DNA from: Frankiales bacterium
GTDB lineage: Bacteria > Actinomycetota > Actinomycetes > Mycobacteriales > Jatrophihabitantaceae
Length of the DNA: 64,000 bases
NCBI GenBank assembly: GCA_025966315.1
Contig: JAOPUZ010000048.1
Coordinates: 1 to 64,000, forward strand
Direction: 5' to 3'
Below are positions 40,792 through 54,696 of the stretch, one piece after another (positions within the stretch are counted from its first letter, which is position 1; every line of letters starts with the position of its first letter). A program made the position numbers and the translations under genes. The notes below the pieces were generated by a model. It was not told the origin of the DNA, made no database searches, and was given only the letters and a program-made list of their open reading frames with translations.

Positions 40792-40824
40792 GGCCGGAAT
40801 TGTAAGCCCGTTAGGGTGGCAATC

Positions 40825-41654
40825 ATGGACTTCGGTGTGGCGTATTTTCCGACTCACAACGCGATGGCGCCGGACGCGGTGGCTCGACTGGTAGAGGACC
40901 GCGGATTCGACTCCCTGTTCTTCGCCGAGCACACGCACATTCCGGCCAGCCGGCTATCCCCGTACGGTGACGGCAGCAAGGAATTGCCGACCAAATACCT
41001 GCACACCTACGACCTGTTCGTCGCCCTCACCGCCGCCGCGCTGGCCACCACCCGGCTGCGGGTGGGCAGCGGTATCTGCCTGGTCATCGAGCGCGATCCC
41101 ATCATCACCGCCAAGAGGTCGCCAGCATCGACGTCCTCAGCGGTGGGCGGCTCGAGTTCGGCGTCGGCGCGGGCTGGAACCGCGAAGAGATGGAAAACCA
41201 CGGCACCGACCCGCGCGTCCGGATGGCTGTGATGCGCGAGCGGGTCGAGGCAATGAAGCAGATCTGGACCCAGGACGAGGCCTCCTACGCCGGTGAGCAC
41301 GTGTCCTTCGACCGGATCTGGTCGTGGCCCAAGCCGGCGCAACGGCCGCACCCGCCCGTCCTGGTCGGCGGCACCGGGCCGGGCGTGCTGGATCGGGTGC
41401 TGGCCTATGGGGACGGCTGGATTCCTAACCACGGCGCGGACGTGCTGGCCCGCGGGGACGAGCTCACGGCTCGGGCCGACCGGCCGATCAGCAAGATGGT
41501 GATGAGCGTGCCGCCCGATCCGAAGCTGTTCGAGAGTTACGCCCAGGCCGGCTTCACCCGGGTGATTCCGTGGATTGAATCCACTCAGCGCGGACCGATC
41601 GAGAAGGCTCTGGACAGCTACGAATCGGCAATCGCCGAGTTCACCGGCCAGTAA
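40825..41654 (+). pseudogene. LLM-class F420-dependent oxidoreductase, frameshifted
   Basis: The N-terminal part (MDFGVAYFPTHNAM to RDPIITAK) is in one frame and the rest (DVLSGGRLEFGVGAGW onward, ending at 41654) in another. At about 41115 one base seems lost: AAG-AGG-TCG appears where AAG-GAG-GTC would restore the conserved ITAKEVASIDVLSGGR. Otherwise the gene looks intact and well conserved, so this is either a very recent pseudogene or a sequencing error. It would be a luciferase-like enzyme using F420 or FMN. Confidence 0.9.
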
Positions 41655-43048: not shown

Positions 43049-44371
43049 CTATGACGCCGTGACGGTAGGACTTTCCGGCAGGATGTCAACTACGCGAACC
43101 CCGAAGCGCCGCAGGCCCACCGCGTCGGCCGGCTCGTCGGCCAGCAAGCGCACCGACCTGATCCCGAGACTGTCCAGGACCTGGGCGGCCGTGTCGAAGT
43201 CGCCGTCGGCGTGCACCCATTCCGGACGCTCGGCCAGCCGACCGGCATCCTGCTGCTCGTAGGCCATCAACTTTGCCAGCAAGCCGGCGCCGGCCGCGTC
43301 GCGACGCTCGCGACCTCGTAGGTACACCACGACCCCTCGTCCGGCAGCGGCGACGGCAGCAAGCGAATCGGTCAGGCGCTGCGCGCACCGGCATCGTTGT
43401 GAGCCGAAGACATCTCCGAGCAGGCACTCGGTATGTACGCGCACGAGCACCTTCTCGGCACCGTCGAGTTCACCCATCGTGAAGGCCACATGCTCACGAC
43501 CATCGCGCGGCGCGGCGTACCCGACCGCTTCAAACGGCCCGTAGGGCAACGGCACCCGCGCGCGAACCAGCGGCTCGACGACGCCCGCCGCGGCCCGGCG
43601 ATGACGGACCAGTTCGGTGATGGTCGTCAACGAGAGGCCGAACTCGTCGGCGAAATCTCGCAGCTCGGCCCCCTGGGCCATGGCCAGCGGCTGCTCGCGG
43701 CTGACCAGTTCGGCCAGCACACCGGCCGGCGAGAGGCCGGCCAGTATCGCCAGGTCCATCGCGGCCTCGGTATGGCCGAACCGGTCGAGCAGGCCATTGC
43801 TCTGGGCCCGGACCGGCAGCACGTGCCCAGGCCGCGACAGATCATCACGTTGGGTGGCGGGATCAGCGAGCAACCGGATCGTGTAAGCCCGGTCCGCGGC
43901 CGAGATGCCGGTACTGATGCCGTGCGCGGCATCCACGGTCACCGTGAAAGCGGCCGCTTCGGCCCGAGCACCGTGCGAGGGCATGGCCGGCAGCGCCAGC
44001 CGGTCGGCCACCGCCCCGGGCACGGCCACACAGAGATAGCCCGACGTGTGACGCACCGCGAACGACACCAGGTCGGCGTCGGCCAGCGCCGCGGCGAAGA
44101 TCAACTCTCCCGCGCTGGTGGCCGAATCGTCGTCCAGCACGATCACGGCGCGACCGGCCGCGACGTCGGCGATGACGGCCTCGACCGGGTCCAGCCGGAC
44201 GGCCTCGACCGGCTCCAGCGGGGCGGCCTCGGCGGCCTCGTTCGAAGCGGTCGCTCCATCCCCCACCAATGGTCCGGGGCTGGCGGAAAGCGCGCTCAAA
44301 ACGCTCCGCTTTGCTTGAGGATCCGGCGTGCGGTCGGCAGCCATTCGGCCAGCGTAGGCGACGTCTCCCAT
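43049..44371 (-). CDS. RibBA-like protein with degenerate active sites
   Basis: 440 residues with DHBP-synthase (about 60-265) and GTP-cyclohydrolase-II (about 275-435) domains. In the first, the acidic loop DDEDRENEGD is DDDSATSAGE, losing key Glu residues, though RPGHVLPVRA and GHTEAAMD remain. In the second, the zinc Cys set ECLLGDVFGSQRCRC is kept, but the catalytic QEGRGIG segment is GRERRDAAG and the nucleophilic Arg (DERD in E. coli) is lost. It is last in the sulfonate-type operon, overlapping the FMN reductase gene by 76 nt, or 49 nt if it starts at 44344. A regulatory or FMN-supply role is inferred. Confidence 0.82.
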   Translation of the reverse strand: MGDVAYAGRMAADRTPDPQAKRSVLSALSASPGPLVGDGATASNEAAEAAPLEPVEAVRLDPVEAVIADVAAGRAVIVLDDDSATSAGELIFAAALADADLVSFAVRHTSGYLCVAVPGAVADRLALPAMPSHGARAEAAAFTVTVDAAHGISTGISAADRAYTIRLLADPATQRDDLSRPGHVLPVRAQSNGLLDRFGHTEAAMDLAILAGLSPAGVLAELVSREQPLAMAQGAELRDFADEFGLSLTTITELVRHRRAAAGVVEPLVRARVPLPYGPFEAVGYAAPRDGREHVAFTMGELDGAEKVLVRVHTECLLGDVFGSQRCRCAQRLTDSLAAVAAAGRGVVVYLRGRERRDAAGAGLLAKLMAYEQQDAGRLAERPEWVHADGDFDTAAQVLDSLGIRSVRLLADEPADAVGLRRFGVRVVDILPESPTVTAS

Positions 44372-44787
44372 TCGGTGTCGACGAGATACAACGCCCGGGT
44401 CGGCGTCGAGCAGCCGATCTCGACCAGCACCGGCTTGAGCGACAGCTCCGGGGCCAACGCGTGCCCCGGCCCGGCACCCAGCATCAGCGGGACCGCGACG
44501 ACCCCATCCAGGCTGCCGCCGCCGAATTGATCCAGGAACAACTTCAGCAGCCCGGTGTAGGTGGCCTTGTACGTCGGGCTGGCCACAATGAGCAAGTCCA
44601 GTCCCTTGACCGCCTCGACCGCGGCAGCGACCGCGGCGTCACCCCAGCCGAGCAGTCCCGGTCCCAGCTCCACCACGTCGATGGCCAGGTCCGGCTCGGA
44701 GCCGGTTAGTTCGACGGCGACGTGCCGGGCCGCCGCGAACGTCCGCGAGTTGGGCTTCGGGTTGCCGACCACGATGCCGACGGTCAT
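44296..44787 (-). CDS. NAD(P)H-dependent FMN reductase (MsuE/SsuE-like)
   Basis: 163 residues, flavodoxin-like fold with GNPKPNSRTF (FMN phosphate loop) and ASPTYKATYTGLLKLFLDQ. Supplies FMNH2 to the two LLM monooxygenases encoded just upstream. ATG at 44787 behind AAGAGG. Confidence 0.9.
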   Translation of the reverse strand: MTVGIVVGNPKPNSRTFAAARHVAVELTGSEPDLAIDVVELGPGLLGWGDAAVAAAVEAVKGLDLLIVASPTYKATYTGLLKLFLDQFGGGSLDGVVAVPLMLGAGPGHALAPELSLKPVLVEIGCSTPTRALYLVDTEWETSPTLAEWLPTARRILKQSGAF

Positions 44788-44836
44788 GAACGAACCTCTT
44801 CCTGCGGGTGGGTACCTCGAGCGTGCCTTCGTGCGA

Positions 44837-45976
44837 TCAGACGGCGAGCGAAACCTCACGGGCCGAGTCGATCGCCCGTCCGGTCGAACGTTCCCGCGAC
44901 GCTACGCCCTCCCGGAGGCGAGGAATCAGCTCCCGACCGTAGTCGATTGCGTCTTCGTACGGGTCATACCCGCGGATCAGGATCGTGCTGACGCCCAGAT
45001 CGACGTAGTCGAGCAAGGCTTCGGCGACGGTTTCGGCTGTCCCGACCAATGCGGTGGAATTTCCGGCCGCTCCGGTGGCCGCGGCCAGCGGGGTCCACAG
45101 CGCGCGATCGTGTCGCTCGCCGCGCTCGGCCGCTTCCAATTGCCGTTGCGATCCCACCGACCGCAGCGCGTTCGGCGCCGGCCGCCATTCCTTCGACGGT
45201 GTCGCCGAGGCGATCCGGGCCTTGGTCTGTTCCAGGATGTCGTGCGCGCGCTGCCAGGCCAGATCCTCGGTCGCTCCCAAGATCGGACGGAAGGACACGC
45301 TGATCCGCGGCGGCTCGGCCCGGCCGGCGGCCGCGGCGGCGGCGTGCACCAGCGCGATCTCTTCCGCCGTCTGGGCCAGCGGATTGGCGAAGAGCGCGTA
45401 CACGTCCGCCTCGGCGGCGCCGATCCGGTAGGCCTCGGGGGACGACCCACCGAAGTACAACGGGATGCGTGGCTTCTGGTAGGGCCGGACGCCGCTGATG
45501 AAGTCCTCGAACTTGTAGAATTTGCCGTCGAAATCGAACGGGACCTCCGACGTCCAGGCCTGCTTCAGCACCCGCAGGAATTCACCGCTGCGCTCATACC
45601 GCTCGCTCTTGGACAGGTAGTCCCCGTCCCGGTGCTGCTCGGCGTCGGCGGCACCGCTGATCGTGTGCAGCGCGATCCGGCCCTGCGTGAACTGGTCGAG
45701 GGTCGCGAACGTCCGGGCCGCTACCGTCGGGAATACGAAGCCGGGACGGTGCGCGATGAGAAACTTCAGCCGCTCGGTCACCGAAGCCGCGTACGCCGCG
45801 ACCTGCGTCCCGTCCGGCGATCCGGACGAGTAACCGATGAGCACCCGGTCGAAGTCGGAGTTCTCGTGCGCCCGGGCGAACTTCGACACGTAGACCGGGT
45901 CGATGATCGGTCCGTGGGACGGCCGGATTTCGGACTGCTCGTGGGTGCTGATCAGTCCGATGAGTTCGACAGACAT
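44837..45976 (-). CDS. SsuD-like FMNH2-dependent monooxygenase (paralog 1)
   Basis: 379 residues of the luciferase-like/alkanesulfonate monooxygenase family (FATLDQFTQGRIALHTISG; RIPLYFGGSSPEAYRI; VGSQRQLEAA). Uses FMNH2 and O2 to cleave C-S bonds in sulfonates or sulfones. Clearly related over its full length to the 45979-47142 protein; the two genes are two bases apart. Substrates may differ, giving a broader range. Confidence 0.92.
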   Translation of the reverse strand: MSVELIGLISTHEQSEIRPSHGPIIDPVYVSKFARAHENSDFDRVLIGYSSGSPDGTQVAAYAASVTERLKFLIAHRPGFVFPTVAARTFATLDQFTQGRIALHTISGAADAEQHRDGDYLSKSERYERSGEFLRVLKQAWTSEVPFDFDGKFYKFEDFISGVRPYQKPRIPLYFGGSSPEAYRIGAAEADVYALFANPLAQTAEEIALVHAAAAAAGRAEPPRISVSFRPILGATEDLAWQRAHDILEQTKARIASATPSKEWRPAPNALRSVGSQRQLEAAERGERHDRALWTPLAAATGAAGNSTALVGTAETVAEALLDYVDLGVSTILIRGYDPYEDAIDYGRELIPRLREGVASRERSTGRAIDSAREVSLAV

Positions 45977-45978
45977 CG

Positions 45979-47142
45979 CTACACCAGCGCCGCGACGGAC
46001 TCGTTCGCCGCGGTGCTCGGACGTGCGGCCGAGCCGTTCTCGGCCTCACGACGGGCGACCTCGGCCCGGACCAGCGGCAGCAGCTCCCGGCCGTAATCGG
46101 TGGCGTCCTCCAGTGGGTCGTAGCCACGGATGAGCAGGGTCGTCACGCCCAGGTCGATGTAGTCGAGCATCGCCTGCGCGACGGTCTCCGGAGTCCCGAC
46201 CAGGGCAGTTGAGTTGCCGCCGCCACCGACCGCCTGGCTGACCGGCGTCCACAGCGCGCGATCGTGCAGTTCGCCCTTGGCCGCGGCCGCCAACAGCCGC
46301 TGCGACCCGACGTTCTGTGGCTCAGCCCCGCCGAGCACCGCGGCCCGCTTGCGGTTGGACGCCCAGGCGCCACTGGCCTTGCTGGTGTTGATGTCGTCGA
46401 GGATGCGGTGCGCCCGCTCCCAGGCCAATTCCTCGGTCGCGCCGAGAATGGGACGGAAGGACACGCTGATGCCGGGCATCTGAGTCCGGCCGGCGGCCCG
46501 CGCCGACGCGTACACGGACGCGATCTGCTCCGCGGTCTCGGCTAGCGGCTCACCCCACAGGGCGTAGGTGTCGGCGTGCTTGCCGCCCACCCGATACGCC
46601 GCGGCCGACGATCCACCGAAGTAGATCGGGATACGCGGGTCCTGGGCCGGCTTGACGGCGGAGAAGAAATCCTCGAGCTTGTAGTAGGTCCCCTCGTAGT
46701 CGAACGGCTCGTTCGACGTCCACGCCTGCTTGACGATGTCGAGGTACTCGTCGGTACGGGCATAGCGCTCGTCCTTGGTCAGGTAGTCACCGTCGCGGCG
46801 CTGCTCGGCGTCATTGCCACCGGTGATGATGTGGATCGCGACGCGGCCTTCGGAGAACTGATCCAGGGTGGCGAACGTCCGAGCCGCGACCGTCGGAAAC
46901 AGGAAGCCAGGCCGGTGCGCGATCAGCAGTTTCAACGTGCTGGTCTTGCTGGCGGCGTAGGCCGCGACCTGGTTCGGGTCTGCGCTGGACGAACCGAGGG
47001 CGACCAGGATGCGGTCGAAGCCGGCGTCCTCGTGGGCCTGGGCGAACCGGCGCGTGTAGTCGGCGTTGAGGGCGGGTCCGGAGCCGGGGCGGGACTCGGA
47101 CTCCTCGCGGGTTCCGATCATTCCTACGAATTCGATAGGCAT
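45979..47142 (-). CDS. SsuD-like FMNH2-dependent monooxygenase (paralog 2)
   Basis: 387 residues with the same LLM/SsuD signatures (FATLDQFSEGRVAIHIITGG; RIPIYFGGSSAAAYRV). ATG at 47142 follows the ABC ATPase gene by 17 bp. The C-terminus carries an extra Ala/Ser/Arg-rich tail. Likely product of a tandem duplication with paralog 1. Confidence 0.92.
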   Translation of the reverse strand: MPIEFVGMIGTREESESRPGSGPALNADYTRRFAQAHEDAGFDRILVALGSSSADPNQVAAYAASKTSTLKLLIAHRPGFLFPTVAARTFATLDQFSEGRVAIHIITGGNDAEQRRDGDYLTKDERYARTDEYLDIVKQAWTSNEPFDYEGTYYKLEDFFSAVKPAQDPRIPIYFGGSSAAAYRVGGKHADTYALWGEPLAETAEQIASVYASARAAGRTQMPGISVSFRPILGATEELAWERAHRILDDINTSKASGAWASNRKRAAVLGGAEPQNVGSQRLLAAAAKGELHDRALWTPVSQAVGGGGNSTALVGTPETVAQAMLDYIDLGVTTLLIRGYDPLEDATDYGRELLPLVRAEVARREAENGSAARPSTAANESVAALV

Positions 47143-47159
47143 TGAGGCGTTACCTTTCT

Positions 47160-48272
47160 TCAGTGAGGCAGTGGTTCGGGGCGTGCGGGTACGCGGGGTC
47201 GGTCGGCGTCTTCTAGTTCGGCTCGCCAGGTGCTGTGGTGATGGCAGCTGACCCGCCAGCCGCCGCCGTGGGCGGTGGGTACGTCCTGTGCGGCCGGGAC
47301 GGTGCCGCAGACGTCGGTGGCGAACCGGCAACGGGCCCGGAAGACACAACCGGCTTCGAGGTCGTTCGACACCGTTGCTGTGTCCGCATCCACCAATCGG
47401 AGTTGGCGGACGTGCAACGGGCGATGTTGCTCCGATGACGGCTCCGGACGCTGGTCGGCCAGTTGATCCGACAGCGCGGGAGCGGAGGCGATGAGCAGCG
47501 CCGTATACGGATGCCGGGGCCGGGCGAAGACCTCGGAGATCGGGCCGTCCTCGACCACCCGCCCGCGGTAGAGCACCAGCACCCGGTCCGCGATGCCGGC
47601 CAGCGAGCTGAGATCGTGCGAGATGATGATCACGGAGAGCCCGCGGCTGGTGCGCAGTTCGTCCAGCAGCCGCAGGATGTTATTGCGGTTGGAGGAGTCC
47701 AGGGCGCTCACCGGCTCGTCGCAGATCAGCAGCTGAGGGCGCAGCACCAGAGCCCGGGCGATTGACACCCGCTGGCGTTGGCCGCCGGAGATCTGGGCCG
47801 GATGCTTGCTCAGCAGCGATTCGTCCAGGCCGACCCAGCCGAGCGCTTCACGCACCCGAGTGGCGATCTCGTGCGAGCTCGCCTGCCCCTGGGTGACCAG
47901 TCCCTCGGCCACCAGCTGCTCGACGGTGAGATCCGGGTCGAGGGACCGCAGCGGGTCCTGGAACACGAACTGCACCGACCCACCGCGCCGGAGATCCCGT
48001 CGGGCCGAGCCCCGCAGCGACGAGATCACCTTGTCCTGCAGGCGAATCTCACCCTGTGACGGATCGGCGAGTCCCATCACGGTGCGGGCCAAGGTCGTCT
48101 TGCCGGACCCCGTCTCGCCGATGACGCCGAGGATCTCCCCCGGGCGCACGGTCAGATCAACCTGCGACAAGATGTGCGCGGCCCGGCGTCCCCGACCCAG
48201 GTGGACGTCGACCGACTCCACCGACAGCAGCGGCAGGTCGACCGAACGACCTGACTCGACCGTTGCCGTCAT
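47160..48272 (-). CDS. Opp/Dpp-type ABC importer ATPase (DppF-like)
   Basis: 370 residues: Walker A GETGSGKTTL, signature SGGQRQRVSIARA, Walker B LLICDEPVSALD, and the Opp/Dpp C-terminal extension with a Cys cluster (CVFRARCRFATDVCGTVP). Second of two ATPases powering the importer. ATG at 48272 overlaps the previous stop by four bases (ATGA). Confidence 0.94.
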   Translation of the reverse strand: MTATVESGRSVDLPLLSVESVDVHLGRGRRAAHILSQVDLTVRPGEILGVIGETGSGKTTLARTVMGLADPSQGEIRLQDKVISSLRGSARRDLRRGGSVQFVFQDPLRSLDPDLTVEQLVAEGLVTQGQASSHEIATRVREALGWVGLDESLLSKHPAQISGGQRQRVSIARALVLRPQLLICDEPVSALDSSNRNNILRLLDELRTSRGLSVIIISHDLSSLAGIADRVLVLYRGRVVEDGPISEVFARPRHPYTALLIASAPALSDQLADQRPEPSSEQHRPLHVRQLRLVDADTATVSNDLEAGCVFRARCRFATDVCGTVPAAQDVPTAHGGGWRVSCHHHSTWRAELEDADRPRVPARPEPLPH

Positions 48273-49327
48273 GACGCCAGCCGCGTCAGGCTCAGCTCGT
48301 CGGACCGCAGGCAGCGCACCTCGTGGCCGCCCCCCGACGAGATCGCCACCGGCGTCGTCCGGCACTGCTCGGTCGCGAAGCCACACCGGTCGGCGAACCG
48401 GCAGCCCGGCAGTTGGGCCCCGACCGAGGGCGGCTGACCTTCGATCACGTCCAGGGTCCGGCGGGTGTAGTCGCCCAACGAGGCCACCCGCAGCATGGCC
48501 TGGGTGTACGGATGCCGCGGCCGGAGCAGGATCTCCTCCGTCGGGCCGGCCTCGACGATCTCGCCGGCGTAAAAGACAACCACTCGGTCACACAGCTCGG
48601 AGATGACGGCCAGATCGTGCGAGACGAACAGCACGCCCAGACCTCGTTCGTCCCGCAACCGCAGGATCAGCTCGATGATCTCGGCCTGGATTGTGACGTC
48701 GAGGGCGGTCGTCGCCTCATCGGCCACCAGGAGTTCCGGATCACCCGAGACAGCGATGGCGATCATCACGCGCTGCAACATCCCGCCCGACAGCTCGCCC
48801 GGAATCTGGCGGTACACCGACTCGGCGTCGCGGAGACCGACCAGCCGCAACAGTTCGAGCGCCCGCTGCTTAGCTTGTTTGCGCGAACAACCCTGTACCG
48901 AGCGCAGCGCTTCGGCCAGCTGCCGGCCCACCGGGACGGACGGGTTCAGGTACGAGCCGGGATCCTGGAAGACCGCGCCGACCCGGCTGCCGCGGACAGC
49001 CCGCCAGGCCTTGTTGCTGAACTCGGCGGTGTCCTGGCCACCGAAGGACACCGAGCCCTCGGCGACGTGGCAGCCCGGGGCGAGGATGCCGAGCGCCGCC
49101 CGGCAGGTCAGCGTCTTACCGCTACCCGACTCACCGACCAGGCCGACGACCTCACCGCGGCGGACCGCCAGCGAGACGCCGCGCACCGCCTCCAGCGCGC
49201 CGTTGTGCACGGTCACCGTCAGGTCGTCGATGACCAGGACGTCCTGGCCCGGGCTGCGCTGACCGGCGACCCCGGTTCGCAGCGCGTCGCTGGTCTCAGG
49301 CTCACGCAGCTGAGTGTCGGTTGACAT
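48269..49327 (-). CDS. Opp/Dpp-type ABC importer ATPase (DppD-like)
   Basis: 352 residues: Walker A GESGSGKTLTC, signature LSGGMLQRVMIAIAV, Walker B LLVADEATTALD, and the Cys-bearing tail CRFADRCGFATEQC. ATG at 49327 behind a strong GGAGG; the start lies 26 nt inside the permease gene. Confidence 0.94.
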   Translation of the reverse strand: MSTDTQLREPETSDALRTGVAGQRSPGQDVLVIDDLTVTVHNGALEAVRGVSLAVRRGEVVGLVGESGSGKTLTCRAALGILAPGCHVAEGSVSFGGQDTAEFSNKAWRAVRGSRVGAVFQDPGSYLNPSVPVGRQLAEALRSVQGCSRKQAKQRALELLRLVGLRDAESVYRQIPGELSGGMLQRVMIAIAVSGDPELLVADEATTALDVTIQAEIIELILRLRDERGLGVLFVSHDLAVISELCDRVVVFYAGEIVEAGPTEEILLRPRHPYTQAMLRVASLGDYTRRTLDVIEGQPPSVGAQLPGCRFADRCGFATEQCRTTPVAISSGGGHEVRCLRSDELSLTRLAS

Positions 49328-50288
49328 CGGCGGCCTCCTCATCGATCTTGTCGATCACCGGGTTTGCACTGTTGGCGCCGAGGAAAGCCGGGTCGGCGTC
49401 ATCCCCCGGTTGAGTCAATTCCGTTGCCGCGGCCTCTTCGGTGGCGGCTTTGCTGCTCGCGGCCGAGAGCAGGCTGACGTGCACGCCAGAGGCATCGCGG
49501 ATGGCGTCGGCCAACGCGTTCAGTGCGCCGGCCGTGAGCATGATCAGCACCGCCGGCACGATAGGTGCCCACGGTGCCTGGTTCAGGTAGCTGAGATCGC
49601 TGGCCAATACACCACCCCAGGTCGGCGCCGGCGGGACCACACCGATGCCGAGGAAGGTCAAGGACGAGACGATCAGCAGGGCGGCCGAGGCCGACATCGC
49701 CGCCGCGACGGCGATGGTCGGGATCACCTTGTTGAGGACGTGCACCCGCACGATGCGGAACCGGGATGCTCCGAACAACTCGGCCGATTCGACGTACTGG
49801 GCGCGGACGAACTCCAGCGCGGCGGCGCGGGTCACCCGGAAGAACAGCGGTGAGGACAGGAACCCGATCGCCAGCATGGCCGGGGTGAGGCTGTTACCGA
49901 GCACCGCGGTGCAGCCGATCGCGAACACGATCGTCGGCAGGGTCATGATCGCATCGGTGATCCGGTTGGCGATGAAGTCGAACCAGGTTCCGAGAAACGC
50001 CGACAGCAGCCCGGGAATCGCGCCGAACACCAGTCCCACCAAGGTGGCCTCGGCTGCGGTGGTGACCGAGGTGCGGGTGCCGGCCAGCAGGCGGCTCAGC
50101 ACGTCGCGGCCCAGATAGTCGGTGCCGAGCCAGTGCCGGCTGCTCGGCCCTTGCAGGAAGTCCTTGACGCTCTGGTGCAGCGGGTCCTGCGGGGCCAGCG
50201 CCGAGCCGAAGATGGCCAGCAGCAGCACGGCCAGCAGGATCGCGACCGAGATCTGTGCCGAACGGAAACGCAGGGTCTTCTTCAGCAT
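49302..50288 (-). CDS. Opp/Dpp-type ABC permease (DppC-like)
   Basis: 328 residues with an N-terminal helix, five permease helices and the cytoplasmic EAA loop (EFVRAQYVESAELFGASRFRI). The last 60 residues form an Ala/Glu/Asp-rich tail unusual for DppC. ATG at 50288, two bases after the DppB stop. Confidence 0.93.
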   Translation of the reverse strand: MLKKTLRFRSAQISVAILLAVLLLAIFGSALAPQDPLHQSVKDFLQGPSSRHWLGTDYLGRDVLSRLLAGTRTSVTTAAEATLVGLVFGAIPGLLSAFLGTWFDFIANRITDAIMTLPTIVFAIGCTAVLGNSLTPAMLAIGFLSSPLFFRVTRAAALEFVRAQYVESAELFGASRFRIVRVHVLNKVIPTIAVAAAMSASAALLIVSSLTFLGIGVVPPAPTWGGVLASDLSYLNQAPWAPIVPAVLIMLTAGALNALADAIRDASGVHVSLLSAASSKAATEEAAATELTQPGDDADPAFLGANSANPVIDKIDEEAADVNRHSAA

Positions 50289-50290
50289 GG

Positions 50291-51313
50291 CTACCGCCCA
50301 CCCGACGGGCGCAGCCAGCCGAGCGCTGCCTTGACGACGAGGTTCGACACGATGACCAGCGCGCTGGTGACCAGCAGAACCCCTTGTACGACCGGCACAT
50401 CCCGCTGGGCGGCGCTGGACAACGCCAGCTGGCCCAGACCCGGGAGGGCGAACACCGTCTCGGTCACGACCGCGCCGCCGATCAGCAAGGGGACGCCGGC
50501 ACCGAGGACGGTGAGGGCCGGCCCGGCGGCGTTACGCAGGGCGTGCACGATCAAGATCCGGCTGGGCCGTAGGCCTCGTACGACCGCGCCGGTGACGTAG
50601 TTCTTGCGTAGCTCCTCGACCAGCGAGGTGCGCAGCTGGCGAGCGATGCCCACGCCCAGTTCCAGACTCAACGCCAGACTCGGCAACAGGATCCGCTCGA
50701 ACCATTGCCCGGTGTTCACCGTGAAGCCGGTGTATCCGGCCGAGGGCAACACCTTCAGCGTGGTGGAGAAAATCACCACCAGACCGATGCCGACTACGAA
50801 GGCGGGCAGTGTAGCCAGCAGCGTGCTGGCCAGCGTGATACCGCGGTCGATCCAGGACCCCTGCTTGACGGCGGCCAACGTACCGGCCAGCCCACCGAAG
50901 ATCACCGCGAACAGTGCCGCCACGATCGCGAGCGAGAGATCGACCGGCAGCCGCTGGCTGATGCTCTGGCTGACCGGGATCTGGGTGAAGTAGGACGAGC
51001 CGAGATTGCCCTGCAGCGCGTTGCCCAACCAGTGCACGTACTGGCTGAAGAACGGCCGGTCCAGCCCGAACTGGTGATTGATCCGCGCGATGTCGGCCGG
51101 GGTGGCGGTGTCCCCGAGTACCGACGCGGCCGGATTGGCGTTGGAGAGCGCCCCCAGGCCGTAGACCAGGAAGGTGCTGACCAGGATCACCGGCACGAAG
51201 ATGCCGAGCCAGCGCCCGGCCCGCCGGCCGGCCCCGCGGGTGGCGCGACCGAGACCGGACGGCGACCGTCCGATACTCGGCGCGCCGATCCGCGTGGTGG
51301 TGATCGCGCTCAT
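50291..51313 (-). CDS. Opp/Dpp-type ABC permease (DppB-like)
   Basis: 340 residues. A first helix and periplasmic segment (LGDTATPADIARINHQFGLD) precede the inner-membrane permease domain with the EAA loop (LRTSLVEELRKNYVTGAVVRGLRPS). ATG at 51313. Separated from the binding-protein gene by 127 bp of repeat-rich sequence. Confidence 0.93.
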   Translation of the reverse strand: MSAITTTRIGAPSIGRSPSGLGRATRGAGRRAGRWLGIFVPVILVSTFLVYGLGALSNANPAASVLGDTATPADIARINHQFGLDRPFFSQYVHWLGNALQGNLGSSYFTQIPVSQSISQRLPVDLSLAIVAALFAVIFGGLAGTLAAVKQGSWIDRGITLASTLLATLPAFVVGIGLVVIFSTTLKVLPSAGYTGFTVNTGQWFERILLPSLALSLELGVGIARQLRTSLVEELRKNYVTGAVVRGLRPSRILIVHALRNAAGPALTVLGAGVPLLIGGAVVTETVFALPGLGQLALSSAAQRDVPVVQGVLLVTSALVIVSNLVVKAALGWLRPSGGR

Positions 51314-51440
51314 CCCCGGCTCCGCCTGCCGGCGCCGTCGGTGTTCCGGTCACTCATGGAGGTCACCGGCTCTTCGCGCGAGCGCTCATCGCTGGCATTC
51401 GCTCCGCTCCTCACTCGCTGGCGCTCGTTGCGATGCTCGC
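51314..51440. other. 127-bp intercistronic spacer with CGCT/GCTCG repeats
   Basis: Dense short repeats such as GAGCGCTCATCGCTGGC, CGCTCCTCACTCGCTGGCG and GATGCTCGCTC can form several small hairpins. In binding-protein operons such a spacer often allows higher expression of the binding protein than of the permeases. No gene is seen. Confidence 0.55.
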
Positions 51441-52991
51441 TCACGACGCGACCCGGACGCCTTCGAACCGTTGCGTGATCAGGGTGAAGGGCAGGCCGGT
51501 CACCTTCGGGCTGGTGGCCAGGATCCGGGGCGTCGTGTACAGCCAGATGTGCTGCGAGCCCGGCGAGGTGACGGCGGCCTTGACCGTGGCCTGCAAGGTG
51601 CTGGCGTAGTCGGGCGAGTCCAGCGGGACGGTGCGCAGCTTGTCGAACACGGTCTGCACGTTGCTGGGGATCTTGGCCGACAGGTTCATCAGACCCTTGC
51701 TGTCGTAGAGCACCTCGAGCATCTGCAGCGGCGATTCACGACCGGCCGTCCCGTCGAGGGCGAGCCCCGGCTGCTTCTGGATGTAGACGATATTGGTGAA
51801 TTGCGCGGCCGGGATGACGTTGATCTTGGCCGTGATACCGGCTTCCTTGAGCTGGCTCTGGAGCTGCTCGACCGCGCCGGTGGCGATGCTGGTGGTCAGC
51901 GGGATGGTCAGCCCGTTCGGGTAACCGGCCTGGGCCAGCAGCTGCTTGGCCTTGTTCACGTCATGCGGGTACAAGTTGGCCAGCGACGGGTCGTAGCCGA
52001 CCGTGTAGTTCTTCGGGAAGGGCTGGAAGGACGGCGACCCGTGCCCGAACTGCTGGGTGTCGACCAGCGCCTGCCGGTCGATGGCGTAGTTGATCGCCTG
52101 CACGACCAGCGGGTTGCTGAACGGGGCCTTGCTGGTGTTCACGTCCAGGGTGGTGACCACCTGGGACGGCACCTCGTTGATCGTGAAGCCGGCGGCCTTG
52201 GCGGCGCTTACCGAACTGCCGGCGATGTAGGCGACGTTGACGTCCCCGGACTGCAGGGCAGCCAAGATCTGCTGCTGGTCGGTGATGGCCTTGACTGACA
52301 GCTTGGCCAAGTGGATATCGCTGGCGTCGAACCAGTTCGGGTTGCGGACGAAGTCGGCGTGCGATCCCGGCACGTAGTTGGTCAGGGTGAACGGCCCGTC
52401 GCCGACCGGCTTGGTGGCCAGGCCGGCCGCGTTGGCCTTGATGGCGGTCGGGCTGACGATCATGCCGGTCTTGCCGGCCAGCAGGTTCGGGACCTGGTAG
52501 TCGACCTTGGACAGCTTGATGGTGAACTCGGTCGGGCTGGTCACCGTCACGTCCGTGACCTCGGCCAGCTGCGAGGCGATCCGGGAATCCGGCGTGTCGC
52601 GGCCACGCAGGATATTGGTCTTCACGGCATCGGCGTCGAGCGCCGTCCCGTCGCTGAACTTGAGATTCGGCTGCAGCGTGAAGGCGATGCTCTTGCCGTC
52701 CGGGGCGTACTTCCAGGACTTGGCCAGGCCGCCGACCGCGTTACCGTTCTTGTCCAGCGCGGTGATCGCACTGTAAGCGAGACCGAGCACGTGGGCGTCC
52801 CAACCGGCGCTGGACGTCACCGGGTCGAACGAGGTGGGCAGGTCCCATTCCCAGTTCAGCGTGCCGTTGTCACCGGCCGGGCCGCTGGCCTTCTCGGCCC
52901 CGCCTCCGGAGTTGCAGGCGGACAGCACCGTGGCAAGCACGGTTACGGCAGCGGCGGTCAGGACGCGTTTATGGCGCGGGCGGCGGATCAT
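51441..52991 (-). CDS. ABC solute-binding lipoprotein (SBP family 5)
   Basis: 516 residues. A lipoprotein signal (RRPRHKRV then LATVLSACNSG, lipobox LSAC, acylated Cys about 26) precedes an SBP_bac_5 domain with SFDPVTSSAGWDAHVLGLAYSAI. Captures the substrate for the DppBCDF-like transporter; despite the peptide name, family members bind many compounds. ATG at 52991 with GAAGG upstream; first gene of the operon ending in the RibBA-like gene. Confidence 0.93.
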   Translation of the reverse strand: MIRRPRHKRVLTAAAVTVLATVLSACNSGGGAEKASGPAGDNGTLNWEWDLPTSFDPVTSSAGWDAHVLGLAYSAITALDKNGNAVGGLAKSWKYAPDGKSIAFTLQPNLKFSDGTALDADAVKTNILRGRDTPDSRIASQLAEVTDVTVTSPTEFTIKLSKVDYQVPNLLAGKTGMIVSPTAIKANAAGLATKPVGDGPFTLTNYVPGSHADFVRNPNWFDASDIHLAKLSVKAITDQQQILAALQSGDVNVAYIAGSSVSAAKAAGFTINEVPSQVVTTLDVNTSKAPFSNPLVVQAINYAIDRQALVDTQQFGHGSPSFQPFPKNYTVGYDPSLANLYPHDVNKAKQLLAQAGYPNGLTIPLTTSIATGAVEQLQSQLKEAGITAKINVIPAAQFTNIVYIQKQPGLALDGTAGRESPLQMLEVLYDSKGLMNLSAKIPSNVQTVFDKLRTVPLDSPDYASTLQATVKAAVTSPGSQHIWLYTTPRILATSPKVTGLPFTLITQRFEGVRVAS

Positions 52992-53497
52992 GATGTGGTC
53001 TTTTCCTTCGTTGGGCATCAGCAGGGAAGGCATAAGGTGGCCTGAAAATGTGCGCGGGCGGGACCAGCCACACGTTGTGAGGCCGCACAAATGCATCAGC
53101 AAGCGAGGCATCGGGCGGTGCGGCAGGTGGGACGGGCTCGCTCTACGGCCGATGAAAACGGGCCGGAGCAGGGTCGGGCTGGTGCGGGGCCTTTAACAGA
53201 CCGCGCTGGAGGTGCGCACGTAGTCAACCCAACGGCACGCGACGAAGCGCGCGGCCTGGCTGGCTGAAGACGGCACCGGCGGTTGCATAGGCGAAACTCT
53301 GGCACACCCCGAGCGCATCCGTCAATTTCCTATAGGGTTGATATGGAATGGCTCACAGAGGCCACACTGACGGCATCTCCGCGCGCCGGAAGATGTTTGA
53401 CAACCTGATTTGTCTGCGGGCAGCGTTGGCGACAGGCCGGTGGACGAAGCCGCCAAGCAGGTATGCCCAGCCACCACCATCGTTTCCGGAGAACCCA
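52992..53497. other. 506-bp divergent control region
   Basis: Separates the binding-protein operon (minus) from the cupin/hydrolase operon (plus). No reliable gene. It holds the palindrome CCTATAGG (53329-53336) next to a TTGACG -35-like hexamer on the minus strand. The region 53060-53250 is GC-rich and could be a long 5' leader of the ABC operon; no known riboswitch was recognised. Confidence 0.6.
53302..53336 (-). promoter_or_regulatory. Candidate promoter and operator of the ABC/monooxygenase operon
   Basis: On the minus strand, CCTATAGG (53329-53336) is followed by TTGACG (complement of 53320-53325) and, 18 bp later, a CAGAGT hexamer as a weak -10. The palindrome beside the -35 is a plausible regulator site. 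The start of transcription would lie about 300 bp before the binding-protein gene. Confidence 0.45.
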
Positions 53498-53965
53498 GTG
53501 ACCGCCCAGCCCGCCCACGACGACTTTCACCAACCGCTGCGCCATATCCGCGCGGCCGAGATCGATAGCGAGACCGCACAGACTTCCGGCATGCAGCGCT
53601 ACGCGGCGATCAGTGCCGGCAAGGTTGGATCGGAACGGTTGTGGATGGGTGAGACGCACGTCAAACCGAGCATGAAGTCAGCCGACCACCACCATGGCGA
53701 GGCCGAAACCGCGATCTTCGTCGTCTCCGGCACCCCCGAATTCGTGTTCGCCGACAACGAGACGGGCGCCGAGATTCGGATCGCGGCCGCCCCGGGCGAC
53801 TACATATTCGTCCCGCCGTACACGCCCCATCGGGAAGAGAACAACGATCCCGACGTTGAAGCAGTCGTAGTCATCGCTCGCAGCACTCAGGAGGCAATCG
53901 TGGTCAACCTGCCGTCGCTCAATGTCGAGATCGCCACCGTCGCGTCGACCGAGGCCTCGTCGTGA
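53498..53965 (+). CDS. Cupin-domain protein
   Basis: 155 residues, single cupin with metal ligands in HHHGEAETAIFV and PPYTPHREEN. GTG at 53498 with CCGGAGAA upstream. The stop overlaps the hydrolase start (GTGA). Divergent from the ABC operon, so it may process the imported compound or act as a dioxygenase; the substrate is unknown. Confidence 0.82.
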   Translation: MTAQPAHDDFHQPLRHIRAAEIDSETAQTSGMQRYAAISAGKVGSERLWMGETHVKPSMKSADHHHGEAETAIFVVSGTPEFVFADNETGAEIRIAAAPGDYIFVPPYTPHREENNDPDVEAVVVIARSTQEAIVVNLPSLNVEIATVASTEASS

Positions 53966-54696
53966 CGACGCGACGCTGGGATCCGCCCGCGCCGCTCAAC
54001 CCACGCGGCACGCTGGTGGTGCTCCCCGGACGGGGTGAGCATGCCGGCGTCTACGAGCGTTTCGGGCTGCGGCTGGCCAATGACGGCTATATCGTCGTGG
54101 CCCTGGACGCGGCGGCCATGTCACCTCAAGCAGCCGCCAAGCAGGTCTCCGAAACCGTCACCGCCGAACTCGTACATCCACTGGTTCTCGTCGGCTCCGA
54201 CGTGGGCGCGTTGAACGCGTTGTTGCTGGCCGCCGACCCGTCCGATCTCGAGACCGGGCCGGACGCGGTCATCGCCGTCGGCACGCCGCTGGCGGTGTCC
54301 GCCGCCGGTCCCGGCGAGGACGACTGGGATCACGAACTCGACGCCCGCAGCGCCTGCCCGACCCACCGGGCCAAGCTGGATGCCGACGACAAGCTCGGCC
54401 GCGGTCAGCTGTTCACCGAACCGATCATGCCGGGACTGGCCGAAGAGGCCAGCCGGGCCCGCCCAGCGGTTCCGGTGCTGTTCGTGCACGGGGCCGCGGA
54501 CTCGATCGCCGATCCCGCCGCCGTGGCCGAACTGGCGCGCCAGTTACCGCACGCGGTGCTGGCCACCGTCCGCGACGGCAAGCACGATTCGCTCAACGAC
54601 ATCACGCATCGATCCGCAGCCGCTCAGGTTGTGCAGTTCCTTGAGGACGTCCGGTCCAGCTCGGATGCGGGCCCCATCATCACGGTCACCGGCTGA
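53962..54696 (+). CDS. Alpha/beta-hydrolase with Asp at the nucleophile position
   Basis: 244 residues, alpha/beta-hydrolase fold with LVVLPGRGEHAGVY (oxyanion region), the nucleophile elbow VGSDVGALNA, HGAADSIADP (acid) and DGKHDSLND (His). The elbow has Asp where most esterases have Ser, as in haloalkane dehalogenases and epoxide hydrolases. Coupled to the cupin gene by a four-base overlap. Confidence 0.82.
   Translation: MTTRRWDPPAPLNPRGTLVVLPGRGEHAGVYERFGLRLANDGYIVVALDAAAMSPQAAAKQVSETVTAELVHPLVLVGSDVGALNALLLAADPSDLETGPDAVIAVGTPLAVSAAGPGEDDWDHELDARSACPTHRAKLDADDKLGRGQLFTEPIMPGLAEEASRARPAVPVLFVHGAADSIADPAAVAELARQLPHAVLATVRDGKHDSLNDITHRSAAAQVVQFLEDVRSSSDAGPIITVTG

Follow-up and report, generated by a model that had tools for sequence, protein, structure and literature searches.

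The ssuEADCB and MsuD systems combine a luciferase-like monooxygenase (LLM) of group C, dependent on flavin mononucleotide (FMN), with an SsuE-like FMN reductase and an ATP-binding cassette (ABC) importer, and in the ytm/Cmo system of Bacillus subtilis a single operon encodes LLM enzymes together with an importer and a flavin-related protein. Peptide/nickel-family importers lie beside an LLM gene on a Ketogulonicigenium plasmid and in Klebsiella (KPN_01854-KPN_01858, TIGR04028/TIGR04027, which we take to be neighboring genes). LLM enzymes are reported to increase in Rhodococcus and Gordonia under sulfur-limited or dibenzothiophene growth, and Ssu/Tau-type importers are among those Rhodococcus proteins (PMC8557817, PMC11852219, PMC7661421). 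Here we describe a locus in a 64,000-nt stretch of the genome of a Frankiales bacterium (assembly GCA_025966315.1, contig JAOPUZ010000048.1, positions 1 to 64,000; the whole stretch is referred to as the window), in which a Dpp-type importer accompanies twin SsuD-like monooxygenases. Judging by its genes and those of its relatives, it is probably a sulfur-scavenging operon, in which an organosulfur compound would be imported through the DppBCDF-type transporter and its C-S bond cleaved by LLM enzymes supplied with reduced FMN (FMNH2).

Gene Content of the Locus

A sequence-only reading of the window had listed a binding lipoprotein, a DppBCDF-like transporter, twin LLMs, an FMN reductase, a RibBA-like protein and divergent cupin and hydrolase genes; family searches recovered all of these, and refined coordinates place the two SsuD-like genes two bases apart, as described in that reading. 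The features are as follows:

43049-44371, minus strand: degenerate RibBA-like protein with DHBP synthase and GTP cyclohydrolase II domains (PF00926, 208 bits; PF00925, 143 bits); start uncertain
44296-44787, minus strand: SsuE-like FMN reductase (PF03358, 73 bits; TIGR03567, 76 bits, below the 164-bit cut-off)
44837-45976, minus strand: LLM1, SsuD-like, putatively FMNH2-dependent monooxygenase (PF00296, 223 bits; TIGR03565, 195 bits, cut-off 518)
45979-47142, minus strand: LLM2, SsuD-like, putatively FMNH2-dependent monooxygenase (PF00296, 246 bits; TIGR03565, 230 bits, cut-off 518)
47160-48275, minus strand: DppF-type importer ATPase (NCBIfam Opp/Dpp-type ATPase matches, all below cut-offs)
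48269-49342, minus strand: DppD-type importer ATPase (NCBIfam Opp/Dpp-type ATPase matches, all below cut-offs)
49302-50288, minus strand: DppC-type permease (NF045474 Opp2C, 215 bits, below the 300-bit cut-off)
50291-51313, minus strand: DppB-type permease (NF045470 Opp2B, 241 bits, below the 350-bit cut-off)
51441-52991, minus strand: family-5 substrate-binding lipoprotein (PF00496, 222 bits; fold matches with Z up to 40; GRES at the DppA/OppA amine-binding region)
53323-53342, plus strand: candidate regulatory site CAATN{1,2}CCTATNGN{3}TGAT in the divergent promoter region (pattern built post hoc)
53348-53965, plus strand: cupin protein (PF07883, 36 bits); true start probably further downstream
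53962-54696, plus strand: alpha/beta hydrolase (PF12146, 53 bits)

The importer has a SBP_bac_5 substrate-binding protein (SBP), two permeases and two ATPases, and the earlier statement that it differs from SsuABC is right. Neighbors among the nine minus-strand genes (43049-52991), from which the cupin and hydrolase genes diverge, overlap or are at most 50 bp apart; the one exception is a gap of 127 bp that follows the binding-protein gene. Because of this tight spacing the nine genes are likely to form one transcript. Set against ssuEADCB/MsuD, the operon differs in its Dpp-type importer, twin LLMs, hydrolase, cupin and degenerate RibBA.

Monooxygenases without Sulfonate-Binding Residues

LLM1 and LLM2 share 60% identity with each other and are 34% and 32% identical to SsuD, respectively, with TIGR03565 scores under half of the cut-off. 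Among proteins of solved structure, MsuD (7jv3) and SsuD (1m41) are nearest to them in sequence, and they score best as SsuD-like proteins, while the NtaA/DmoA model (TIGR03860) gives only 80 and 94 bits against a cut-off of 280. In an alignment of 94 family rows, which include a few copies of one protein (e.g., L111 and L040), the FMN-site Arg and Tyr (MsuD R126 and Y127) are kept in every row and the Trp in 85, whereas none of the 94 has the residue of SsuD at the positions of Arg226, His228 or Arg297, and the RGGA loop has also been replaced. For MsuD, RGGA is reported as the sulfonate-binding loop, and R225A, R296A and W195A each gave no measurable sulfite (PMC8234197). Going by these residues, LLM1 and LLM2 resemble alkanesulfonate enzymes but are not standard sulfonate monooxygenases. 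The SsuD-like enzyme of a related locus (L066; 438 bits, cut-off 518) retains the sulfonate-binding arginines.

Conservation of the Importer-Monooxygenase Module

A scan of named genomes with a 14-protein LLM alignment gave at least 80 loci, and all counts out of 80 or 24 given here are among the matches listed. A Dpp-type importer (at least two of SBP, DppB and DppC at ≥40% identity over ≥150 residues) accompanies the window-type LLM in 24 of the 80, the hosts being Streptomyces, Kitasatospora, Actinacidiphila, Dactylosporangium, Nocardioides, Nocardia, Patulibacter and one Solirubrobacterales metagenome-assembled genome (MAG). The locus L091 was omitted from this set because its contig ends within the importer, and two further importer-LLM loci lie beyond it, on an Embleya plasmid and in genome G330. 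Forty random stretches of 20 kb, all from Mycobacteriales genomes whereas most named loci come from other groups, held no match to the SBP, cupin, hydrolase, FMN reductase or RibBA, and matches to the permeases, ATPases and LLM2 occurred in 1 to 6 of them. The recurrence in 24 of 80 loci and the absence of the SBP from all 40 random stretches show that the importer-LLM arrangement is not due to chance.

The genes around this core are more variable. A hydrolase homologue is found in 17 of the 24 Dpp-type loci (32/80 LLM loci, 0/40 random stretches) and a cupin homologue in seven (34/80 and 0/40), nine have at least two LLMs of the window family, and a flavin reductase of another type (PF01613) is present in eleven. 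The neighborhood is conserved in its importer-LLM core, often with the hydrolase and less often with the cupin; RibBA, present in just one of the 24, does not belong to the conserved genes. SsuA-type binding proteins occur in 28 of the 80 LLM loci and in none of those with a Dpp-type importer, so the choice of importer varies among relatives of these LLMs. Among close relatives of the host the system is patchy. SBP matches at E ≤ 1e-70 were found in 4 of 396 genomes, the host included, and on a contig from the same family (G416), LLM2 and LLM1 lie in tandem with identities of 74% and 79%. The end of this contig falls within LLM2, so that any importer would be beyond view.

Sulfur Genes in Related Loci

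Nine sulfur-type markers were searched for by tblastn with thresholds chosen by the analyst: SsuD with RGG[AS], SsuE, SsuA, SsuC, thiol dioxygenase, rhodanese, SfnB-like acyl-CoA dehydrogenase, O-acetyl sulfhydrylase and NtaA/DmoA-type LLM. At least one was found in 21 of the 24 Dpp-type loci, 57 of the 80 LLM loci, 2 of the 40 random stretches and 4 of 34 RibB-paralogue loci (see below), the enrichment in Dpp-type over random stretches having a Fisher p of about 1e-11 for loci that are related to each other. Genes for Rrf2 regulators, a family that includes the cysteine regulator CymR, occur in six of the 24 and in none of the 40; the L063 protein scored 68 bits against the CymR model (cut-off 195).

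The clearest single case is a plasmid locus of Streptomyces sp. NBC_01558, found via a 38% identical binding protein, where genes for a cupin, Rrf2, DsbA, SBP, two permeases, two ATPases, an NtaA/DmoA monooxygenase, an LLM, a hydrolase, SsuE and an O-acetylhomoserine/serine sulfhydrylase lie together. Two layouts recur among the Dpp-type loci. The first is marked by an SfnB-like acyl-CoA dehydrogenase (11/24) and a BisC-type S/N-oxide reductase (5/24; the L066 protein scored 915 bits against TIGR00509, cut-off 1018), and the second, in Nocardioides and Nocardia (7/24), by a class III CoA-transferase, an enoyl-CoA hydratase and a thiol-dioxygenase-like gene with 31-38% identity to known-type queries. 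The dioxygenase, CoA-transferase and acyl-CoA dehydrogenase are found together in only one of the 24 (L112). Three proteobacterial loci with LLM homologues and a different importer have thiol dioxygenase and rhodanese genes; a fourth has a serine acetyltransferase, and a fifth has neither but carries a cupin gene and an acyl-CoA dehydrogenase.

The Substrate-Binding Protein

Asp residues D408 of DppA and D419 of OppA are, we assume, those that bind the peptide amino group. At this column all 22 aligned LLM-linked SBPs have a Gly followed by an invariant Arg (G-R-[ED]), a pair absent from DppA, OppA and GsiB, and also from one family-5 protein whose surroundings, up to 9 kb away, have no annotated LLM; SBPs from eight of the 24 loci fell outside the 22 owing to incomplete or missed gene calls. 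By this signature the protein is not a typical peptide binder, and the earlier argument that a peptide-type importer points to an amino-acid-like substrate loses its support, because the amine-binding Asp is gone and G-R-[ED] stands in its place. An AlphaFold model (12-sequence alignment, mean pLDDT, the predicted local distance difference test score, of 80) was used in a fold search, which cannot tell the ligand because opine, nickel, glutathione and peptide binders match about equally well (Z up to 40).

The two peptide/nickel-type parallels differ from the window locus. The window SBP scores 42 bits against TIGR04028 (cut-off 468), and on the Ketogulonicigenium plasmid the LLM has 439 residues and there is only one ATPase gene. 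In that alphaproteobacterial parallel (L141, 7594-14148), the LLM, family-5 SBP, permease and ATPase genes lie beside a LysR gene.

A Candidate Regulatory Motif and Other Host Sulfur Loci

A sequence noticed by eye in the divergent region was recast, after comparison with a second site, as CCTATAGNNNTGAT and then as CAATN{1,2}CCTATNGN{3}TGA. This final pattern has exactly three sites in the host genome (4.56 Mb, 77 contigs) and none in a reversed control. One, at 53323, lies in the divergent region of the operon. The second is near an SsuD-type gene (52% identical to Escherichia coli SsuD), at about 72 bp from where that gene is called to start; the gene is divergent from further LLM genes. 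The third precedes a cysteine-dioxygenase-type gene (PF05995) by 232 bp, and after the dioxygenase comes a rhodanese gene. A motif that the operon shares with two other sulfur loci of the host is suggestive of a sulfur function. A role as a general operator for the module was rejected because CCTATAGG is found in none of the 24 Dpp-type loci.

The second of these sites belongs to a further sulfur-type island (C55:9001-28000, L245), where the SsuD-type gene and the LLM genes divergent from it are accompanied by an importer with a family-3 binding protein, by a gene resembling flavin reductases and by a fusion of sulfate permease and carbonic anhydrase. The PF05995 dioxygenase-type and rhodanese genes lie at 1501-2704 of L254 (contig C59).

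The Degenerate RibBA and Its Relatives

The window RibBA retains both domains, the HTEA motif and the GTP cyclohydrolase II zinc cysteines (ECLLGDVFGSQRCRC), and is 52% identical to the host's own RibBA, which is encoded on another contig and has all motifs intact. As the sequence-only reading had proposed, it is a relic by its active sites, both of which are altered: RENEGD has become ATSAGE, HEGRGIG is changed and carries a three-residue insert, the arginine of PADARDY is missing, NNP has become DEP and the C terminus is shortened. We take RENEGD to be the metal/catalytic loop, and the other three to have catalytic-motif roles. A protein so altered, unlike the bifunctional enzyme, is not expected to make riboflavin precursors.

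At E ≤ 1e-120, no match other than itself was found among 296 genomes. RibBA matches were also seen on plasmids. Many genomes of the host's order have more than one match to the window protein (RibA-only proteins counted), and from the matches in 20 genomes 34 RibB-paralogue loci were chosen and their surroundings read. In a 39-row tree of RibB domains, the window relic and eleven further degenerate proteins share a clade (support 99/92), although three more proteins labelled degenerate fall outside it and long branches may inflate the grouping. A flavin/FMN reductase gene adjoins nine of the twelve clade members (the window, L039, L147, L162, L164, L165, L167, L169 and L171, but not L170, L172 and L173); several RibBA paralogues with intact motifs also adjoin one. 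In L162, L164 and L167, from the host's family, the FMN reductase is 67-68% identical to that of the window, and no LLM match was found in the stretches read, where the importer was not sought. The ratio of nonsynonymous to synonymous substitution rates (dN/dS) of the degenerate RibBA in the L162/L164 pair is 0.142, compared with 0.120-0.145 for three neighboring genes, and shows that it is under purifying selection, as for a working protein; the value is that of these relatives, no close orthologue of the window copy having been found.

Tentatively, these proteins could be a RibB(A) pseudoenzyme family devoid of both synthetic activities and selected as partners of flavin reductases, binding, sensing or handing over flavin, and serving here an undescribed system for the desulfurization of carboxylated thioethers; this is a possibility that we hold with low confidence.

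Other rearranged RibB proteins were seen. In a Solirubrobacterales MAG (L119, 7710-9125), a RibB domain with changes in the HTEA histidine and one catalytic-loop glutamate is fused to a flavin reductase domain, two genes after the LLM of a Dpp-type operon. The RibBA paralogues of L160 and L163 keep the DHBP synthase motif; their GTP cyclohydrolase II domain is degenerate but still has the cysteines.

Flanking Sequences

The outer neighbors are an HtpX-like protease gene, which extends to 43000, and, from 54803, a gene resembling 6-phosphogluconate dehydrogenase, labels read from the translations with no family search. A luciferase-like gene is split over two overlapping open reading frames, 40816-41232 and 41190-41654, each covering a different part of PF00296, and may be either a frameshifted gene or the result of a sequencing error. 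Only one RNA element, a tRNA, was found in the 64-kb window at Rfam gathering scores, and the divergent region has no sigma-70-type promoter or terminator, other promoter types being outside the coverage of the scan.

Proposed Function and Alternatives

Under sulfur limitation, presumably the operon's working condition, the lipoprotein would capture an anionic organosulfur compound, which the DppBCDF-type importer would carry inside. The FMN reductase would give FMNH2 to LLM1 and LLM2, which, as expected from their family, would carry out one or two oxidation steps on the compound and cleave a C-S bond. The freed sulfur may then enter thiol dioxygenase/rhodanese-type steps, and the operon's upstream motif also precedes the PF05995/rhodanese pair found on another contig. 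The cupin and hydrolase would probably handle the carbon part, and the degenerate RibBA, at a guess, is an accessory that handles or supplies flavin for the monooxygenases. Our guess for the substrate is a carboxylated thioether or sulfoxide rather than a simple alkanesulfonate or peptide. It leans on the layouts in relatives, which recall the 3,3'-thiodipropionate/3-mercaptopropionate pathway of Variovorax, where a dioxygenase, a CoA-transferase and an acyl-CoA-dehydrogenase-like desulfinase convert 3-mercaptopropionate to propionyl-CoA and sulfite (PMC6370202). Seven of the 24 relatives hold the dioxygenase-like, class III CoA-transferase and enoyl-CoA hydratase genes, whose classes also occur in that pathway, but the acyl-CoA dehydrogenase joins the first two in only one, and the thiol dioxygenase, class III CoA-transferase and desulfinase are not among the genes of the window operon.

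Were this a sulfonate operon with a swapped importer, LLM1 and LLM2 would be alkanesulfonate monooxygenases of the ordinary kind that receive their substrate from a Dpp-type transporter, which fits their nearest solved structures, the conserved FMN site and the SsuE-like reductase. That is improbable given LLM scores below half of the SsuD cut-off, a separate SsuD-type gene in the host, and the loss in all 94 rows of the two arginines whose MsuD counterparts were needed for measurable activity (PMC8234197). Salvage of S-alkylcysteine or S-alkyl-peptide conjugates would draw on the ytm/Cmo precedent raised in the sequence-only reading, and two monooxygenases with a reductase and a hydrolase do recall the two-flavoenzyme logic of CmoO/CmoJ (PMC10863075), with glutathione binders among the sequence and fold neighbors of the SBP. 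CmoJ is described as a homologue of YxeK and DszA (PMC10863075), unlike the SsuD-like LLMs of the window, so that ytm serves at most as a functional parallel. The invariant G-R-[ED] in place of the amine-binding Asp and the lack of an acetyltransferase among the operon genes also make this salvage route unlikely, and the low NtaA/DmoA scores point the same way, that being the family to which we assign CmoJ-type LLMs. The ytm importer is of another family and RibR is a flavokinase-type protein, not RibBA.

The operon might instead supply carbon or nitrogen from a sulfur-free compound, the neighboring sulfur genes being coincidental. A luciferase-like monooxygenase is reported to degrade poly(acrylic acid), which is sulfur-free (PMC11354265), and some relatives have CoA-transferase and enoyl-CoA hydratase genes. 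With sulfur markers in 21/24 loci against 2/40, Rrf2 in 6/24 against 0/40, and a motif common to two other host sulfur loci, there seems little chance that this is so.

Sulfur scavenging remains the probable function, and several points weigh against it. LLM enzymes also act on non-sulfur substrates. Markers and thresholds were picked after some loci had been viewed, O-acetyl sulfhydrylase was found in 0/24 Dpp-type loci and 1/40 random stretches, rhodanese passed its threshold in no locus, and neither Pfam nor NCBIfam gave a match for the L115 protein labelled thiol-dioxygenase-like. The window-type FMN reductase occurs in only 2 of the 24 loci and RibBA in one, and an LLM2 match at E ≤ 1e-90 was not found in seven of eight same-genus relatives. 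The motif core was derived from two of the sites, those of the operon and the SsuD-type gene; the third is one of nine one-mismatch sites, its CAAT noticed later, and the remaining eight have no recognized sulfur gene nearby when read by eye. The by-eye pattern with up to three mismatches has 38 matches and 42 in the reversed control, so the loose forms carry no meaning; another looser form gives 11 and 7. Across 24 genomes of the family there is one other motif match, within a predicted coding sequence. Overall, the earlier reading is supported by the conserved neighborhood, the sulfur context in relatives and, post hoc, the host motif, and is not supported as to an amino-acid-like substrate.

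The open-access literature that was searched gave no paper on the Dpp-type variant, nor any that links degenerate RibBA to flavin reductases, although this does not prove that none exists. Organosulfur compounds in soil are a large sulfur pool to which few importers have been assigned, and the module is found across several actinobacterial genera. Degenerate RibB(A) proteins lie repeatedly beside flavin reductases, and their function would be new.

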